Assembly: GCF_008087625.1 (NCBI RefSeq)
Contig: NZ_CP042997.1
Coordinates: 5,332,001 to 5,396,000 of the forward strand
Length of the DNA stretch: 64,000 nt
DNA from: Aquisphaera giovannonii
GTDB lineage: Bacteria > Planctomycetota > Planctomycetia > Isosphaerales > Isosphaeraceae
Direction: 5' to 3'
The position numbers and the translations under genes are program-made. The notes beneath the pieces were generated by a model. The model worked only from the letters and a program-made list of their open reading frames with translations, was not told the origin of the DNA and ran no database searches. Of this stretch, positions 22,304-35,649 are shown piece by piece; position 1 is the first letter of the stretch, and each line of letters opens with the position of its first letter.

Positions 22304-23665
22304 ATGTCGCAACGGCCGCATCACGGCGAGGCGCCCCATGGCCGAGACCATGCCGCCGCGCTGAGGGCGAGGATCGAGGGCGGCACGGTCCGGGTGGGGA
22401 TCATCGGGCTCGGCTACGTGGGGCTGCCGCTGGCCCGCGCCTTCACGGAGAAGGGGATCGCGGTCCTCGGCTTGGACGTCGACGCCGCCAAGGTGGAGAA
22501 GCTGGCGGCCGGGCGCAGCTACATCGGCCACATCGCCGACGAGGCGGTCCAGGCCATGCGCGCGAGGGGCTTCGAGGCGACGGCGGACTTCGGCCGCCTG
22601 GACGAGCCGGACGCGATCATCATCTGCGTGCCGACCCCGCTGACCGACGCCCGCGAGCCGGACCTCACCTACATCGTCCGCTCCGCGGAGGCCATCGCGG
22701 CCAGGCTGCGGCCGGGGCAGCTCGTCGTCCTGGAGAGCACCACGTACCCGGGCACGACCAGGCAGGTCGTCCTGCCGCTGCTGGAGGGCAGGGGCCTGCG
22801 GGCGGGCGAGGACTTCTTCCTGGCCTTCAGCCCCGAGCGCGAGGACCCGGGCAACCCCAAGTTCTCCGCCCCGACCATCCCCAAGGTCGTCGGCGGCCTC
22901 GACCCGGCGAGCCTGGAACTGGCCTCGGCGCTGTACGACCGGGTCGTCGTCCGGGTCGTCCCGGTCTCGAGCCCGGAGGTCGCCGAGGCCTGCAAGATCC
23001 TGGAGAACACCTACCGCGCCGTCAACATCGCCCTGGTCAATGAGCTGAAGGTCCTCTACGACCGCATGGGCATCGACGTCTGGGAGGTGATCGAGGCGGC
23101 CCGGAGCAAGCCATTCGGCTTCAGCGCGTTCTACCCGGGCCCGGGCCTGGGGGGCCACTGCATCCCCATCGACCCGTTCTACCTGAGCTGGGTGGCGCGG
23201 AGGTACGGCATGGCGACCCGGTTCATCGAGCTGGCCGGGGAGATCAACACGTCCATGCCCTCGTACGTCGCGGGGCGGGTGGCCGACGCGCTGAACGACG
23301 ACGGCAAGCCGGTGAAGGGGAGCCGGATCACGCTGCTGGGCATGGCCTACAAGAAGGACGTGGACGACCCCCGGGAGTCGCCGGGGTTCGAGCTGATGGA
23401 GCGGCTCCGGGCCAAGGGGGCGGAGGTGGACTACAACGACCCGCACATCCCCGCGCTCCCCCCCATGCGGCACTACCCGGATTTGCGAATGTCCAGCCGC
23501 GACCTCACGCCGGACTACCTCCGGTCGCGGGATCTCCTCCTCGTCGTCACCGACCACTCGGCCTACGACTGGCCGTTCATCGCCGCCCACGCGAGCCTCA
23601 TCGTGGACACCCGCAACGCCCTGCGGGGGTGCGGCGGGCTCGGTGCGCGGATCGTCCGGGCCTGA
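22304..23665 (+). CDS. UDP-N-acetyl-D-glucosamine 6-dehydrogenase family nucleotide-sugar dehydrogenase
   Basis: 453 aa. It oxidises the C6 of a UDP-hexose to the acid with NAD+ in two steps, for surface polysaccharides. The Rossmann motif is IIGLGYVGLPLARAF. The substrate loop is NTYRAVNIALVNELK, and the catalytic cysteine is in GPGLGGHCIPIDPFYLSW, all in the expected order. The third domain starts near LLGMAYKKDVDDPRESPG. Length and motif wording are closest to the WbpA/TviB-type rather than UDP-glucose dehydrogenase; the exact substrate is not certain. No polysaccharide genes adjoin it. Confidence 0.92.
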   Translation: MSQRPHHGEAPHGRDHAAALRARIEGGTVRVGIIGLGYVGLPLARAFTEKGIAVLGLDVDAAKVEKLAAGRSYIGHIADEAVQAMRARGFEATADFGRLDEPDAIIICVPTPLTDAREPDLTYIVRSAEAIAARLRPGQLVVLESTTYPGTTRQVVLPLLEGRGLRAGEDFFLAFSPEREDPGNPKFSAPTIPKVVGGLDPASLELASALYDRVVVRVVPVSSPEVAEACKILENTYRAVNIALVNELKVLYDRMGIDVWEVIEAARSKPFGFSAFYPGPGLGGHCIPIDPFYLSWVARRYGMATRFIELAGEINTSMPSYVAGRVADALNDDGKPVKGSRITLLGMAYKKDVDDPRESPGFELMERLRAKGAEVDYNDPHIPALPPMRHYPDLRMSSRDLTPDYLRSRDLLLVVTDHSAYDWPFIAAHASLIVDTRNALRGCGGLGARIVRA

Positions 23666-23896
23666 GCCTGATCAGGCTTGCATAACTTCCACGCAAATGT
23701 TGCCGGATATCCGCGCTCCCGGTCCGGCCGAGCGGCGGCCCGGCCGGGCGCGGCGGGCCATGTCGGCCCGCCCCCCTGTTTTGCGTTATCCCCCGCGGGA
23801 GCTTGACTTTTCCGCTCCCCCTCGCGGCCCCGGCGGCGGCCGGCACCGCGGCCCGGGCTGTTCCCCAAACGTTTGCGCACCTTCGCCTTTGGAAGA

Positions 23897-23912
23897 TGGC
23901 ACGGTCGTTGCT
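23897..23912 (+). promoter_or_regulatory. Sigma-54 type promoter for the ptsP-like gene
   Basis: TGGCACGGTCGTTGCT matches the RpoN consensus TGGCACG-N4-TTGCT exactly, with GG and GC 10 bases apart as required. It ends 61 bases before the ATG at 23974, which is compatible with a short leader. A bacterial enhancer-binding site was not identified. It lies in the 308-base gap after the sugar dehydrogenase. Confidence 0.7.
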
Positions 23913-23973
23913 GTCTCGATCGCGTTCCGGTGAAGTCGGTTCGCCGGGCCGCGTCGGCCGGGCGGGAGCGGAC

Positions 23974-26385
23974 ATGAAGCTCAAGGGACTTTGGCGCATC
24001 GACATGGATCATCCCCCGGAATCCGTCACTGTCGCCGCCGCGGTCCAGGAGAGTTCCCTGCTGCTGACCCTCGAGGAGGTCAGCCAGCTGATCTCGCACT
24101 CGCACAACCCGCACGAGACGCTGGACAACATCGTCCGGCTGATCCAGGGGCGGTTCGCCACCGACGTGGCATCGGTCTACCTGCTGGAGCCGGAGTCGGG
24201 CGAGCTGGTGCTGGCGGCGACGGTCGGCCTGGAGGCCTCCAGCGTCGGCCGCGTGCGGATGAAGCTGTCCGAGGGGCTGACCGGGATGGTGGCGGAGCGG
24301 ATGAGCCCCATCATGGAGGAGGACGCGTTCACCCACCCCCGGTTCAAGTATTTCCCGGAGGCCGGCGAGGATCCGTACCACTCGTTCCTGGGGGTGCCGG
24401 TCATCGAGTCCGGGAGCATCCAGGGGGTGCTCGTCGTCCAGACGGCGGACCGCCGGCGGTTCTCGGCCAATGAGATCCGGATGCTGATCACGGTGGGCTC
24501 GCAGCTCGCGCCGCTGGTCTCCGGCGCCCAGATGCTGGAGAGCGTGGCCCACGCCGACCGGGAGGAGGCGGGCGTCGCCGGGGCCGGGGCGTGCCGGACC
24601 CGCGAGCTGGAAGGCACGCCGCTGTCCCCGGGGACGGGCCTCGGGCGGGCCTACGTGATCGGCGAGCGGGCGGAGCCGGCGGGCGCCTCCCAGTCGTCCG
24701 GCTGCGACCCCGGGGCGGAGGCGCAACGCCTCCGCCGCGCCATGGACGGGGCCCGCGAGGAGATCACCCGGCTGAGCCGGAAGATCTCGCTCCTGGTGGG
24801 CGAGGACCACGGGGCGATCCTCCAGGCCCAGCTCATGATCCTCCAGGACAGCTCGGTGGAGCGCGACCTGGCCGCCTGCCTGCTCCCCGGGGCCTCCGCG
24901 GAGAACGCCGTCCTCCGGACGCTGGACAAGTACATCGCCACCTTCCAGAAGCTGTCCAACCCCTACTTCCGGGAGCGGATCTTCGACGTCAAGGACGTCT
25001 TCCGCCGCGTCCTCTGGCACCTGCGGCCCGGTGAGGACGCCGCGGGGCCGCAGCCCGGCGAGGGCCGGCTGATCCTGGTGGCCCACGAGGCCTCGGTGCT
25101 GGACCTGTTCGCGGTGGACCTGGACCACCTCGACGGCGTGGTCGTCGAGCACGGCGGGCCGCAGAGCCACGCCGTGATCATCGCCCGCAGCCTGGGGATC
25201 CCGATGGTCGGCCGGGTCGAGGGCCTGCTCGGCCGCATCGAGAACGGGCAGCTCGTGCAGGTCGACGGCGCCTCCGGCCGCGTCGTGGTCGAGCCGCCGC
25301 CCGGGGCGCGGGCGGAGCAGGGGGGCGGTGCGCGGCCCTGCCCGGACGTCGACGCTGGGGATCACGCCGGGGCCCCCGGCGGCCTCGACGGGGAGGCCGG
25401 CCCGGCCGGCGGCACCAACGGCCTCGCCGCGGCGGAAGGCCTCCGGGGCACGCCGGCCCCCGCGGCCGAGGCGGAGACGCCGGGCCTGCCGCGGATCGAG
25501 GCGAACGTCAACCTCCTGAGCGAGGCCGCCAGGGTCCGGGAGAATGGCGCCCAGGGGGTGGGCCTGTACCGCTCGGAGATGCTCTTCCTGGCCCGCCGCA
25601 CCCTGCCGACGGAGGAGGAGCAGGTCGAGATCTACCGCAAGCTCGTGGAGACGCTCCGGGGCCGGCCGGTGACGATCCGGACCTTCGACCTCCGCCCCGA
25701 CAAGCTGGGCCACGGGGCGGCCGCCACGCAGTCCGCGGCCCAGAAGCTCGACTGGCGGCTCGTGCTCGAGTCCCCGCTCCTCCAGAGGCTGTTCAAGGAG
25801 CAGGTGCGGGCGATCTTCCGGGCGGGGACGGCCGGCCCGGTCCGGCTGCTGGTCCCGCTCGTCACCCGGGCCTCCCTCCTGGACTTCGCCGTGGCCATCG
25901 CGGAGGAGGCCCGCCGCGAGCTGCTCGCCGAGGGGCTCCCCTTCGACGGCAAGGTCCCGCTGGGCATGATGGTGGAGGCGGCCGCCGTCGCCCCCATGGT
26001 GGAAGAATGGGCAAGCCGCGTCGATTTCGTCGCCCTGGGCACCAATGATCTGATCGCATCGGCGATGGGGACGGTGCGGGAAGATCCGGTGGGGGCCCAG
26101 GAAGATGACTTGCTTCACCCCGGACTCGTGCGAATGATAGGGGAGATGATCGCGGCGGCGCACCGCGCCGGGCGGACCGTCTCCGTCTGCGGCGAGATGG
26201 CCTCCCATCCGGAAGGGGCCGTCGTCCTGGCCGCCCTGGGGGTCGATTCGCTGAGCCTGGCCGTGGATCGCGTGCAGGCGGTCCGCCAGGTGCTCCGGCG
26301 TCGGGATCCGAAGGCCCTGGGGGCGATCCGCGGCGGCCTGCTCGAGGCGAAGTCCGTCGAGCAGGTGCGACGGCTCATCGCCTGA
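23974..26385 (+). CDS. ptsP: PtsP-like phosphoenolpyruvate--protein phosphotransferase with GAF domain
   Basis: 803 aa. It is enzyme I of a nitrogen-type PTS: it takes phosphate from PEP onto a histidine and passes it to an HPr-like protein. An N-terminal GAF domain (about 30-175, VQESSLLLTLEEVSQLISHS onward) is the PtsP hallmark. Enzyme I signatures follow: the phospho-histidine loop GGPQSHAVIIARSLGIPMVG, then GVGLYRSEMLFLAR, RTFDLRPDK, and the C-terminal cysteine in VCGEMASHPEG. Between the swivel and barrel domains is a Gly/Ala/Pro-rich insert near 450-500. In the GTNDL block the usual QY is replaced (GTNDLIASAMG). No HPr or EIIA is seen nearby. A sigma-54 promoter precedes it. Confidence 0.9.
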   Translation: MKLKGLWRIDMDHPPESVTVAAAVQESSLLLTLEEVSQLISHSHNPHETLDNIVRLIQGRFATDVASVYLLEPESGELVLAATVGLEASSVGRVRMKLSEGLTGMVAERMSPIMEEDAFTHPRFKYFPEAGEDPYHSFLGVPVIESGSIQGVLVVQTADRRRFSANEIRMLITVGSQLAPLVSGAQMLESVAHADREEAGVAGAGACRTRELEGTPLSPGTGLGRAYVIGERAEPAGASQSSGCDPGAEAQRLRRAMDGAREEITRLSRKISLLVGEDHGAILQAQLMILQDSSVERDLAACLLPGASAENAVLRTLDKYIATFQKLSNPYFRERIFDVKDVFRRVLWHLRPGEDAAGPQPGEGRLILVAHEASVLDLFAVDLDHLDGVVVEHGGPQSHAVIIARSLGIPMVGRVEGLLGRIENGQLVQVDGASGRVVVEPPPGARAEQGGGARPCPDVDAGDHAGAPGGLDGEAGPAGGTNGLAAAEGLRGTPAPAAEAETPGLPRIEANVNLLSEAARVRENGAQGVGLYRSEMLFLARRTLPTEEEQVEIYRKLVETLRGRPVTIRTFDLRPDKLGHGAAATQSAAQKLDWRLVLESPLLQRLFKEQVRAIFRAGTAGPVRLLVPLVTRASLLDFAVAIAEEARRELLAEGLPFDGKVPLGMMVEAAAVAPMVEEWASRVDFVALGTNDLIASAMGTVREDPVGAQEDDLLHPGLVRMIGEMIAAAHRAGRTVSVCGEMASHPEGAVVLAALGVDSLSLAVDRVQAVRQVLRRRDPKALGAIRGGLLEAKSVEQVRRLIA

Positions 26386-26453: not shown

Positions 26454-27449
26454 ATGAGAGCGAGCAAGGTGAGCCTGCGTCTTGCGGCGTGTTCCGCGGC
26501 CTTCTTCACCTGCCTGGCGCCGGGCCTCCAGCCGACGGCGAGGGCCCAGTCCGTGGGCTTCGTCCCCGGGGTGGGGGTCGCCCCCAGCGGCGTGTCGCTC
26601 GGCGTCACGCCCACCGTCTCGGCGGACCGGATGTACGTCCGGATGGGGATGGACGTGGGCTTCAACCAGGTCACCGGCTTCACCACCTATCAGGTCCCGG
26701 CCGCCGTCAGCGGCGGCGGGGGAGGGGGCGGCAACGCCGGGGGCGGCAACGCGAACGCCGCGGCGATCAACAACCTGCTCGGCAACCTCGGCGGCGGGGC
26801 GGTCTCCGGCGCGATGGGCAACGGCGGGGCGTCCACCATCAACTACGGGGCCTTCGGCGGGGTCGCCGCCGTCAGCGGCGTCGGCTCGTATGGCAACTTC
26901 GGGGGCGACCCCTTCAACAGCATGGGCGGCCTGAACACCTACGGGGGCAACGCGGGCCCCGGCTCGGCCGGCTCGTTCGGGCAGGTGCAGGGGTTCAACG
27001 GCGCCGGCAACTTCGTCGGCGGGGCCGGCACCTTCGGCCCGGCGGGCGGCAACGCCGGCGCGGGGCCCGGCGGCCCATCCCGCAACTTCATCGGCAACCC
27101 CCTGGGCTCGAAGGGGCCCAGGGCTACGCTGCCCGGCGAGGGCCCCGGGGCCATGCCGTCGTCGAATGACCCCTTCCTTCAGGCCGCCGAGGCCCCCGCC
27201 CGAACCGTCGCCGGCGACCGCGGGGCGCAGGCCGACGGCGCGAGGATGCGCCCGGCCGTCCGGGGCCGATCGCGAGGCTCCCGGAGCAAGGTCCTCGTCC
27301 GCAGCCCGGCCCAATCGTCGACGAAGGTCGCGGCCTCCCGGCGTCAGGACGGCCCGGACTCGCCGCCGGCCCCGGCATCGGATTCCTCAGCCTCCCGCCC
27401 GACCCCGGCCTCTCCGGCGCCGTCTGCCTCGCACCGATCCCAGCCCTGA
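26454..27449 (+). CDS. Secreted Gly/Asn-rich hypothetical protein
   Basis: 331 aa. A signal peptide (SLRLAACSAAFFTCLAPGL) is followed by a short conserved-looking beta region (VTPTVSADRMYVRMGMDVGF), then a Gly/Asn/Ala-rich low-complexity body and a basic Ser/Pro/Arg-rich tail. No enzymatic motif. It is probably an exported structural or surface protein. The start ATG at 26454 follows GGGTGAGCC. Its end overlaps by about 105 bases the tail of a degenerate minus-strand gene. Confidence 0.65.
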   Translation: MRASKVSLRLAACSAAFFTCLAPGLQPTARAQSVGFVPGVGVAPSGVSLGVTPTVSADRMYVRMGMDVGFNQVTGFTTYQVPAAVSGGGGGGGNAGGGNANAAAINNLLGNLGGGAVSGAMGNGGASTINYGAFGGVAAVSGVGSYGNFGGDPFNSMGGLNTYGGNAGPGSAGSFGQVQGFNGAGNFVGGAGTFGPAGGNAGAGPGGPSRNFIGNPLGSKGPRATLPGEGPGAMPSSNDPFLQAAEAPARTVAGDRGAQADGARMRPAVRGRSRGSRSKVLVRSPAQSSTKVAASRRQDGPDSPPAPASDSSASRPTPASPAPSASHRSQP

Positions 27450-28265
27450 GGCCTCGCACGGCCGGGCGACGCGCCGGACCTCGCCGACGGGCTCGCGCCG
27501 CCCGGTGCTGCGGCGCCGGCGCGGCACCGCTTGACCAGCGTCACCTCGTTGCCCGCCCTGTTGAAGGAGACCTGGTCCATGAAGGACTTCATCAGCAGGA
27601 GCCCGCGGCCGCTCGAGCGGATCAGGTCCTCGGGCTCGATGGCCCGGTCGATGCGGGAGGTGTCGAAGCCCGGCCCCTCGTCGCGGACCACGAACGTGGT
27701 GCGGTCCGGGTCGTGGGCCACCCGCAGCCGGATCCGGCGGTCGCGGAAGGGGGGGACCGCCGACCTCCTGCGCACCTCGTCGTCGAAGCGGTGCCCGCCC
27801 CCCTCGCGGAGCTCCGAGCTCACCTCGAGGTTGCCGTGGCAGACCGCGTTGCGGAGCGCCTCGTCCACGGCGATGAGGGTCCGCATCAGCTCGGAGGAGT
27901 CGAAGCGGCCGAGTCTCGCCATCTCGTCGCGGAGGATGTCCAGGAGCGGGGGGATCCGCCCCAGGTCGTTGCCGATCTCGTAGGAGGACTCCTGCCGCGC
28001 CGTCGACCGCGGGCAGGTCCGCCTCCGGCCGCCGGCGGCCGGCTCCCGGCCGAGCTCCTGCTCCAGAACGTCCTCGGCCGCGCCGGCCCGCAGGGCCTCC
28101 ATCGCCGCGTCCTCGCTGCCGTCCGCCGTCGTCAGGATCACGGGCACCCCCGCGTGGCCCCTGCGGGCCGAGTCGCCCGCACCCGCCTTGGGCCGTCCAT
28201 GCCGTCCATCCGCAGGTCGGTCAGGACGACCGCGATCGCGCGGCCGGCCAGCCGGTCCGGCGCCC
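27344..28265 (-). pseudogene. Broken receiver plus anti-sigma-type ATPase protein
   Basis: The intact part (from 28147 down) ends a receiver domain (PVILTTADGSEDAAMEALRA) and then carries an RsbW-like HATPase domain: VDEALRNAVCHGNLE (N box) and VVRDEGPGFD with SSGRGLLLMKSFMDQV (G boxes). The front half of the receiver (AVVLTDLRMDGMDG) lies in another frame around 28180-28265 and ends in a stop just where the other frame takes over, so a frameshift lies near 28150-28180. The phosphoacceptor loop's DD start is missing altogether. The C-terminal tail after NEVTLVKRC runs about 60 aa past the usual end and overlaps the gene on the other strand. Confidence 0.7.
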
Positions 28266-29060: not shown

Positions 29061-29546
29061 TCAGCCCTCCACCGCCTCAAGAGCCTGGTGGACGGCCGGA
29101 GCGACCGGTCCTTCGGCGGCGGCCCATTTGAAGAGGCGTACGATCATCCGGACTCGCTTGTTGACCGTGAATCGGGCCAGGCCAGCATCGATGAACCGCC
29201 GGCGGATCGCCTTGAGGGACTTCGGGCCGAACTCCTCGGACTCGACAGCCCCGTACAGATCGAGGAGCGGATTGGGGGCCGCAGTGATGTTGGCGGGCTC
29301 ATTCGCCTTGCAGGTCGTATCGAGGTAGGCCAGGTAGGGCGTGATCAACTCGGCCACGACGGCGCCGCCGTGGTGCGATATCCGCCCGTTAGCGAGCCAC
29401 TCGGCGATGAGTCGATCGTAGGCGGCCTTGCTGGCCGCGGTGCCGTGCGGGCCGAGGTAGCGGTCCCTGCCGCCGAGGGTGACGACGGCCTGACCGGAAG
29501 GCCTGTGGTGGCGATACGACAGGGTGCGCGGGTTCCTTGCGGACAC
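29061..29546 (-). pseudogene. Truncated tyrosine-type integrase, N-terminal fragment
   Basis: 161 aa. The beginning (LSYRHHRPSGQAVVTLGG, DRYLGPHGTAASKAAYDRLI) and the SAM-like core-binding domain through KWAAAEGPVAPAVHQALEA match planctomycete site-specific integrases as I remember them. The protein stops after ALEAVEG, where the family continues into the catalytic domain with R-H-R-Y residues; none is present downstream. The GTG at 29546 gives the usual N-terminus. It is a dead remnant of a mobile element. Confidence 0.7.
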
Positions 29547-29637
29547 GGGAGCGGCCTCCAATCCGGTAGTTTACCGGCTCAGTGCCGCTCCGCCCCACGA
29601 GGACGGGTAAGCTTAAGTCTCACCTTCGGCTGGGGTT

Positions 29638-34119: not shown

Positions 34120-35649
34120 GGGTGAGCGTCTTGTAAGTGGTAAAGGTCAAGCTGCCTTCCGGCGGTTGGCCCAGAAGCCGGTCCAGAGGGCGGACTCGCT
34201 GAGGTAGAGGGCCCGGAGGTGGGCCATGGCGTCGGCCCCCTGATGGCCCCAGCGCATCCCGGTGCCGTTGAGCCGCTCGTTGATCACCAGCTTGCAGCCG
34301 GCCTCCATCGGGCCCGAGCCGATCTGCCACCCCTTGGCCAGGTAGGCCGGGTAGTCCATCCGGTGGTGCTGGTTGCGGAAGTAGTTCACCGTCGCCTCCC
34401 ACGTCGCCCGCGCCCGCGGGGCGGCCGCGACGTCCAGGCCCTCCAGCCAGGCCAGCATCGCGGCGCCCCCCTCGTGCTTCAGCCGATGCGACCACGCCGC
34501 GTGCGCCGCCTCCGCCTGGGCCTCGTCGGCGTGCCAGGCCTTGGCCAGGTCCCCCAGGTGCTCGCTGGCGTGGTAGAAGTCCAGGATCACCGCGTCGATC
34601 CGCCCGAAGTGCCGCCTCAGCAGGTCCTCCAGCCCCGACCCGCCGTCGCACACCGCGATCCAGCGCCGGGCCTCGCCCATGCCCGCCCGGGCGGCCATGT
34701 GTCGCAGCGGCTCGGCCACCGCCTCCTGGCCCTCGGCGCTGGCGACGTACCTCGCCTGCCGGGGGGGCCGGCGCCGGCCCTGGGTCGCCCATCGCTCGCG
34801 GCCCTCGGGGATGGGGTTGTAGACCATGCCCACGGCGATCATCTCCCCCTCGGCCGCGGCCCCCTCGGGCCCCTGCCTGCGGACGCCCGTCAGGTCGATC
34901 GACACGTAGGCGCAGGTCATCCCCTCGGCGTCCACGTGCCAGGCCCAGGGGCCCGCCTCGTCGAAGGGGACCTTGGACTCGATGGCCCGGCCCACCTCGG
35001 CGCCGACGGCCTCGGCGACCCGCTCCACGGTGGACTCGGCGAGGTCCAGGCCGCACATCCGCGGCAGGGCGACATCGGCGGCCTTGGCGAAGCTCTCCCG
35101 GGCCGCCGCCAGGCAGGCCAGCTCGGCGGCGCCGGAGGTCAGGTCGCCGCCGTCGAGGCCGAAGGCGGCGTCGGCGGGGCAGTGGCCCTCGCGGCATCGC
35201 GGGCAGTGGTAGTAGCCGCGCTCGATGCGCAGCGGGCCCAGGGCCGAGACCAGCCCCTTGGGCCGATAGCCCTTGAAGCGGGCGGCCTCGGAGCAGCGGG
35301 GGCAGCTCGTGCTGGACCCTACATACCCCCTTTTTTCCGCTGCATGGCAGCGGCCTGGAGGGCCTTGGCGCCGACCCGATGGACCATGTCGCGGAGCTGG
35401 AACTCGGCCTCGCCGAAGAGCTCGTCGTCGGGCTTGGTGGCCAGCAGCTCGGCCATGGCCCGGATGTCCGCGTCCGAGGCCGCCCGGAGCTCCTCGTAGA
35501 GATCCTGGGCGAGGCGGGCCTGCCGCTCGGGCAGATGCTCGAAGGACATGACGGGGACCCTCCGTGAACAGAAGGCTACTGATTCCGAGGCGACGCATCG
35601 AAGACCTCTGTTCTACGGAATTTCCCACCCACTTTCGAGACGCTTACCC
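34120..35649. mobile_element. ISKra4-type insertion sequence, 1530 bp
   Basis: Both ends start with GGGT and form 21-bp terminal inverted repeats with three mismatches (GGGTGAGCGTCTTGTAAGTGG at 34120 against its inverted partner ending at 35649). They are flanked by the 9-bp duplication TTCGGAGGA. It encodes one frameshifted transposase on the minus strand. The exact duplication and full-length ends suggest a recent insertion. Confidence 0.88.
34147..35549 (-). CDS. ISKra4-family transposase, made by -1 frameshift
   Basis: The first frame starts at 35549 (MSFEHLPERQARLAQDLYEE) and stops at 35319 after about 76 codons. The second frame continues to 34147. They join at AAAAAAGGGGG (35336-35326), where a -1 slip on Lys codons gives about 467 aa, and no other start fits the second frame. 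The catalytic domain has ILDFYHASEHL, GSGPMEAGCK and LNGTGMRWGH, which carry the D and E residues known for the family, plus a CPRC zinc finger pair near the junction. Confidence 0.85.

Follow-up and report, generated by a model that had tools for sequence, protein, structure and literature searches.

Nitrogen sensing and the role of sigma-54 in Planctomycetes are little known, and the one broad survey that we found is computational (PMC12316311). In the window, by which we mean the whole 64,000-nucleotide stretch of the Aquisphaera giovannonii genome that was analysed, the sequence TGGCACG-N4-TTGCT stands ahead of a gene for a GAF-domain enzyme I (GAF-EI). Is this match to the sigma-54 (RpoN) consensus a promoter in use, and if so, through which activator and in answer to which signal would the gene be expressed? 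The first-pass annotation had placed the motif at 23897, 61 bases ahead of a ptsP-like gene ending at 26385, and had proposed a nitrogen-regulated circuit. The letters of the motif were exactly as claimed, the gene end was correct, and the 61 bases hold when counted to ATG 23974 (Table 1).

Table 1. Features at and around the GAF-enzyme I gene, in coordinates of the window.
Feature	Position	Strand	Basis
Nucleotide-sugar dehydrogenase, upstream gene	22304-23665	+	NCBIfam TIGR03026, 408.6 bits
Putative enhancer (UAS) made of a tandem pair of 17-bp boxes, TGCATAACTTCCACGCA and TGCCGGATATCCGCGCT	23679-23695, 23701-23717	+	conserved pattern
Predicted sigma-54 (-24/-12) promoter TGGCACG-N4-TTGCT, TGGCACGGTCGTTGCT	23897-23912	+	exact consensus; 12/12 orthologs keep the site
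Alternative start of the PtsP-like gene, 803 aa	ATG 23974	+	
PtsP-like GAF-enzyme I gene, 793 aa	24004-26385	+	Pfam/NCBIfam; conserved start from ortholog frames
GAF domain within the PtsP-like gene (residues 44-179, numbered in the 803-aa form)	24103-24510	+	Pfam GAF_2, E 2.1e-16
RsbW-like ATPase domain	27344-28147	-	HATPase_c_2
Integrase fragment	29061-29561	-	by eye
Transposase	34147-35628	-	by eye

The gene and its product

The conserved start of the gene is probably ATG 24004, 91 bases from the motif. We favour it because the orthologous frame of A. insulae opens just 6 nt before the matching position. In Pfam, the product has the domain order GAF, PEP-utilisers_N, PEP-utilizers and PEP-utilizers_C, that is, the N-terminal GAF domain and the complete enzyme I by which PtsP (EI-Ntr) is recognized, and the best solved match of its GAF part is the GAF domain of PtsP (3trc, 3ci6). 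The alignment shows that the histidine (399) and the cysteine (739) of enzyme I are kept, and these we take to be the catalytic residues. The stretch that reads DIGGDK in solved enzyme I is DLRPDK (or DLRPAK, DLRSEK) in the planctomycete GAF-EI proteins.

Nevertheless, the name ptsP requires a qualifier, because the score against the NCBIfam PtsP model PRK11061 (383.9 bits) stays below the cut-off of 583 and because the EI part does not group with proteobacterial PtsP. In the EI tree, the planctomycete GAF-EI proteins form a clade of their own (22 rows, support 100/100), distinct from both proteobacterial PtsP and plain EI; the tree is unrooted and carries long-branch warnings, and a sister relation to PtsP is not readable from it. 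On sequence comparison, the protein is PtsP-like and no member of the proteobacterial PtsP clade. A phylogeny of 2008 described ptsP as exclusive to Proteobacteria (PMC2405797), and planctomycete GAF-EI either lies outside that ptsP group, which our EI tree suggests, or extends it.

The motif is situated in the gap between the dehydrogenase gene and the GAF-EI gene, and the dehydrogenase stop codon precedes the putative enhancer by 13 bp. A 955-aa antisense ORF over the PtsP-like gene was judged spurious; long antisense ORFs are usual in GC-rich DNA. A little downstream, an RsbW-like ATPase domain is encoded whose start region resembles, by eye, a broken receiver. The integrase fragment and the transposase further on are possibly remains of mobile elements.

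The sigma-54 site is conserved at orthologous genes

With GG and GC at the fixed spacing of TGGCACG-N4-TTGCW, the site is the only exact match in the 64-kb window, where five matches with up to two mismatches compare with 4.8 expected from shuffles. The whole genome holds six exact matches and, with at most one mismatch, 60 matches versus 60 for the reversed-pattern control. Since these two counts are equal, a match to the motif alone is weak evidence, and a genome-wide regulon drawn from the promoter motif alone was uninformative. One of the other exact sites (L036, G000:C1:7967539-7967554) lies, by eye, ahead of a pair of CsbD-like and DUF1328-like genes; further ones (L037, L035) stand before what read, again by eye, as a cluster of glycosyltransferase genes and a gene resembling argB.

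We judge the site to be more than a chance match because it is conserved at orthologs. Among the 79 genomes searched, the one studied here included, 12 have a GAF-EI gene (nine Isosphaeraceae and three members of family f4). All 12 keep a site with intact GG (-24) and GC (-12) at most 300 bp from the start, so that the conservation in relatives which the first-pass annotation had proposed as a check was indeed found. Two of these sites have no mismatch, six have one and four have two, and the per-locus shuffle p ranged from 0 of 2000 up to 0.013. In the nine Isosphaeraceae, the site begins 83-113 bp before the start codon, and the aligned upstream regions illustrate that the DNA flanking it has diverged widely. 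Upstream regions of control genes, scanned with up to two mismatches, contained a site in 1/12 non-GAF EI paralogs and in 2/22 P-II genes, and contained none for EIIA (0/10) and HPr (0/4).

The site is not a feature of all planctomycete GAF-EI genes. When 700 nt were scanned at 17 further GAF-EI loci (L133 is labelled deltaproteobacterial, the others planctomycete), 16 had no site with up to two mismatches and only L085 had one. The wider class search gave 7 of 8 classified GAF-EI loci without a site, the exception being L287; L303-L305, where the anchor motif is absent, were left out of this reading. Both sets overlap in part; L287 has the site seen at L085, and L301 has that of L126.

A tandem element lies upstream of the site

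Reading of the aligned upstream DNA revealed a second element that the first-pass annotation had missed. It consists of two boxes of the form TGC-N11-GC(A/T/G), 22 bp apart, and its first base lies 218 bp before the sigma-54 site. Of the nine ptsP-like promoters in Isosphaeraceae, eight match the pattern TGCM-N10-GCA-N5-TGCC-N6-YCGNGCK exactly (0/500 shuffles at each of the eight); these eight served to define the pattern, so that their exactness is by construction. The distance to the sigma-54 site is 81-220 bp in this family; the ninth promoter (L009) is without the element. Across nine whole genomes, searched with up to one mismatch, the element was exact eight times, all at ptsP-like promoters, and just four matches were detected elsewhere, each with one mismatch. 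The element is thus confined in its exact form to ptsP-like promoters, and it revealed no further regulon members. Judged from its letters and their conservation, the tandem element is a candidate upstream activator site of the sigma-54 promoter.

Related GAF domains, P-II genes and the single box

A homologous GAF domain is found in other planctomycetes and in Acidobacteria, fused to DUF3417 and a carbohydrate phosphorylase of the glycogen phosphorylase type (GAF-GlgP; L095, L117, L118 and L159 are among the loci with this fusion). The fused GAF domains that were compared are 53-63% identical to the GAF of the PtsP-like protein, and in the GAF tree the GlgP-type domains nest, with moderate support, among those of planctomycete GAF-EI. 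A class-wide search detected this GAF in 51 of 297 genomes, as a single copy in 50 of the 51, and no genome with both fusions is listed among the 79. At the loci examined, a sigma-54 site with up to two mismatches precedes 8 of 13 planctomycete GAF-GlgP genes, compared with 1 of the 43 from Acidobacteria (Fisher p 7e-6); a further pair of loci with odd labels was counted separately and gave a site in 1/2.

The second P-II gene of Aquisphaera (L219, G000:C1:3452581; L220, G002:C299:70429) is preceded by both a sigma-54 site and a TGC-N11-GCA box in each of the two species in which it was found, and site and box occupy matching places in the alignment. The other 20 of the 22 P-II genes examined have no promoter of the sigma-54 site type.

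The single box was then counted in 16 held-out promoters that had not been used to define it (5 ptsP-like, 9 GAF-GlgP and 2 P-II). These are loci with a sigma-54 site at up to two mismatches, L108, L114 and L119 (three mismatches) having been excluded before the count. TGC-N11-GCA lies at most 300 bp upstream of the site in 13 of the 16, versus about 1.6 expected from the summed per-locus shuffles; L013, L105 and L109 have no such box within 300 bp. Because the held-out promoters are partly related (L011/L012, L093/L095, L117/L126, L219/L220), 13/16 represents fewer independent cases than is apparent. Among 19 spacings tested, N11 was best (13/16) and N14 next (8/16), and among 64 triplet pairs TGC/GCA was best (13 versus 6 for the runner-up). 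The TGC-N14-GCA matches in 8/16 promoters overlap N11 boxes in part. Where GAF-GlgP and P-II promoters carry the box, it is single, except that L093 and L095 have a pair spaced 21 bp apart and L093 has a third.

In control upstream regions, the box was found in 2/43 acidobacterial GAF-GlgP genes and in none of the site-less GAF-EI (0/15), site-less P-II (0/20) and EIIA (0/10) genes. In the A. giovannonii genome, the remaining five exact sigma-54 sites have no box within 300 bp. Among 30 motif loci of this genome, three have a box within that distance, including the ptsP-like gene and a locus with a broken core.

RpoN, activators and phosphotransfer partners

Both rpoN and enhancer-binding proteins, which the first-pass annotation had said to look for, are encoded in the genome (10.5 Mb, three contigs): there is one rpoN (E 2e-60), and 15 proteins match PF00158 strongly. 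Thirteen of these 15 have a GAFTGA-like loop, and L074 and L075 read GAFTSA. HPr and EIIA genes are present as well, and an adjacent EIIA-HPr-EI group lies at 6.18 Mb.

The three activators that were scored gave generic NtrC-family scores, none above the ntrC cut-off, with L063 the highest of the three. As a single dedicated activator L063 was rejected, since 4 of the 8 element-bearing genomes have no ortholog above 60% among the matches listed: its orthologs reach at least 73% in G029, G036, G044 and G015 (partial), and matches of just 56-57% are listed for G001, G002, G040 and G042. Reciprocal-best orthologs of L065, L066, L069 and L070 are present, among the matches listed, in all eight relatives fetched. 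In A. giovannonii itself, a perfect TGCCCG-N5-CGGGCA palindrome lies near the start of the L070 frame. Autoregulation was dropped as a route to naming L070 the activator, because the boxes at the fetched orthologs lie inside the gene and none lies upstream. Nor was a conserved box found upstream of activator genes, among the matches listed for their orthologs in the eight relatives.

Discussion

The locus has a conserved sigma-54 site and a conserved enhancer-like element, and the genome has rpoN, activators, HPr and EIIA. We consider it likely that the sigma-54 promoter is real and drives the planctomycete GAF-EI gene via an NtrC-type activator on the tandem boxes. Binding, activation, transcript start and phosphotransfer, as we infer them, would proceed as follows. 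RpoN RNA polymerase would sit at 23897-23912 as a closed complex, waiting, while two dimers of an NtrC-family enhancer-binding protein would occupy the same face of the DNA on the boxes at 23679-23717. Looping of about 200 bp of DNA would bring the activator to the polymerase and allow it to trigger ATP-driven formation of the open complex near 23923, where the transcript is expected to start. The PtsP-like enzyme would pass phosphate from PEP via His399 to HPr and EIIA, a transfer that a ligand on its GAF domain may tune.

Nitrogen control is the leading candidate for the signal, plausible and unproven, because in well-studied bacteria PtsP of the nitrogen PTS responds, through its GAF domain, to glutamine and 2-oxoglutarate (PMC13104625) and because of the promoter at the P-II gene. 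The E. coli NtrC box is TGCACCAnnnTGGTGCA, 17 bp long (PMC8743547). Like it, the box described here spans 17 bp, has TGC and GCA at opposite ends, lies upstream of a sigma-54 site and includes P-II among its genes. Unlike it, the box lacks the inner ACCA...TGGT, its inner bases being nearer TGCCC...GGGCA, and it is arranged in tandem at 22 bp in the ptsP-like promoter. The nitrogen circuit of the first-pass annotation thus gains from the NtrC-box geometry and from the site plus box before P-II, but loses from the many P-II genes (20/22) without such a promoter and from the other five exact sites without a box. That nitrogen status is the signal and the activator this lineage's NtrC is, in our view, an even call.

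The same promoter and enhancer might instead serve an NtrC-family regulator concerned with stress, the envelope or carbon (AtoC/ZraR type), with a PtsP-like protein that answers starvation or carbon state, a reading that we regard as possible though somewhat short of even. It would agree with the generic scores of the three activators, with the box and site that also precede GAF-GlgP genes, with the exact site seen by eye before the CsbD-like gene, and with the survey PMC12316311, which ties sigma-54 of Planctomycetia to Usp, chaperones, MscS and ZraR-like genes. Against it stand the NtrC length and outer triplets of the box, and the box and site before P-II in both Aquisphaera species that have that gene. 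We regard it as improbable that the boxes belong to some other transcription factor (a repressor or a sigma-70 activator) and that only the -24/-12 element is related to sigma-54. The range of box-to-site distances (81 to 220 bp) would suit such a factor, but an enhancer fits variable distance together with tandem helical spacing, and the box tracks the sigma-54 site, as its absence from site-less GAF-EI and P-II genes and its rarity in acidobacterial GAF-GlgP indicate. A functionless chance match to the consensus, with which the genome-wide count equal to the reversed control would agree, is very hard to reconcile with a site kept in 12/12 orthologs despite diverged flanks.

The sigma-54 promoter that we favour is like those of E. 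coli and other Pseudomonadota in its -24 GG, -12 GC and exact spacing, in rpoN and activators, and in its upstream enhancer-like boxes; it differs in that it would drive a GAF-EI gene. Proteobacterial ptsP is typically found downstream of rppH, and the available text of that account mentions no sigma-54 control of ptsP (PMC13104625). With EI-Ntr/PtsP, the protein shares the architecture, the His and Cys in the expected places, and the presence of HPr and EIIA. In contrast to EI-Ntr/PtsP, it scores below the PtsP model cut-off, its EI part forms a separate clade (100/100), and its GAF groups with that of GAF-GlgP and not with alphaproteobacterial PtsP. The 2025 computational survey of sigma-54 regulons lists PTS genes and many planctomycete targets; its main text contains no ptsP, COG3605, glycogen or phosphorylase, and the promoter may be in its supplementary tables (PMC12316311). 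Among the open-access papers searched, we found none that treats ptsP and the nitrogen phosphotransferase along with sigma-54 and a promoter, and none joining glycogen phosphorylase, the GAF domain and Planctomycetes.

Our analysis yields a promoter, a putative enhancer and a short list of candidate targets (ptsP-like, GAF-glycogen phosphorylase and P-II genes). Tentatively, these may belong to one planctomycete sigma-54 regulon under a single NtrC-like activator that has a 17-bp box of its own, and the regulon would control GAF-enzyme I or GAF-glycogen phosphorylase, depending on the lineage, as well as P-II. If true, it would couple nitrogen status either to phosphorelay signalling or, directly, to the breakdown of glycogen, and a glycogen phosphorylase with a PtsP-type GAF domain, responsive to glutamine and 2-oxoglutarate, would link nitrogen directly to the carbon store.
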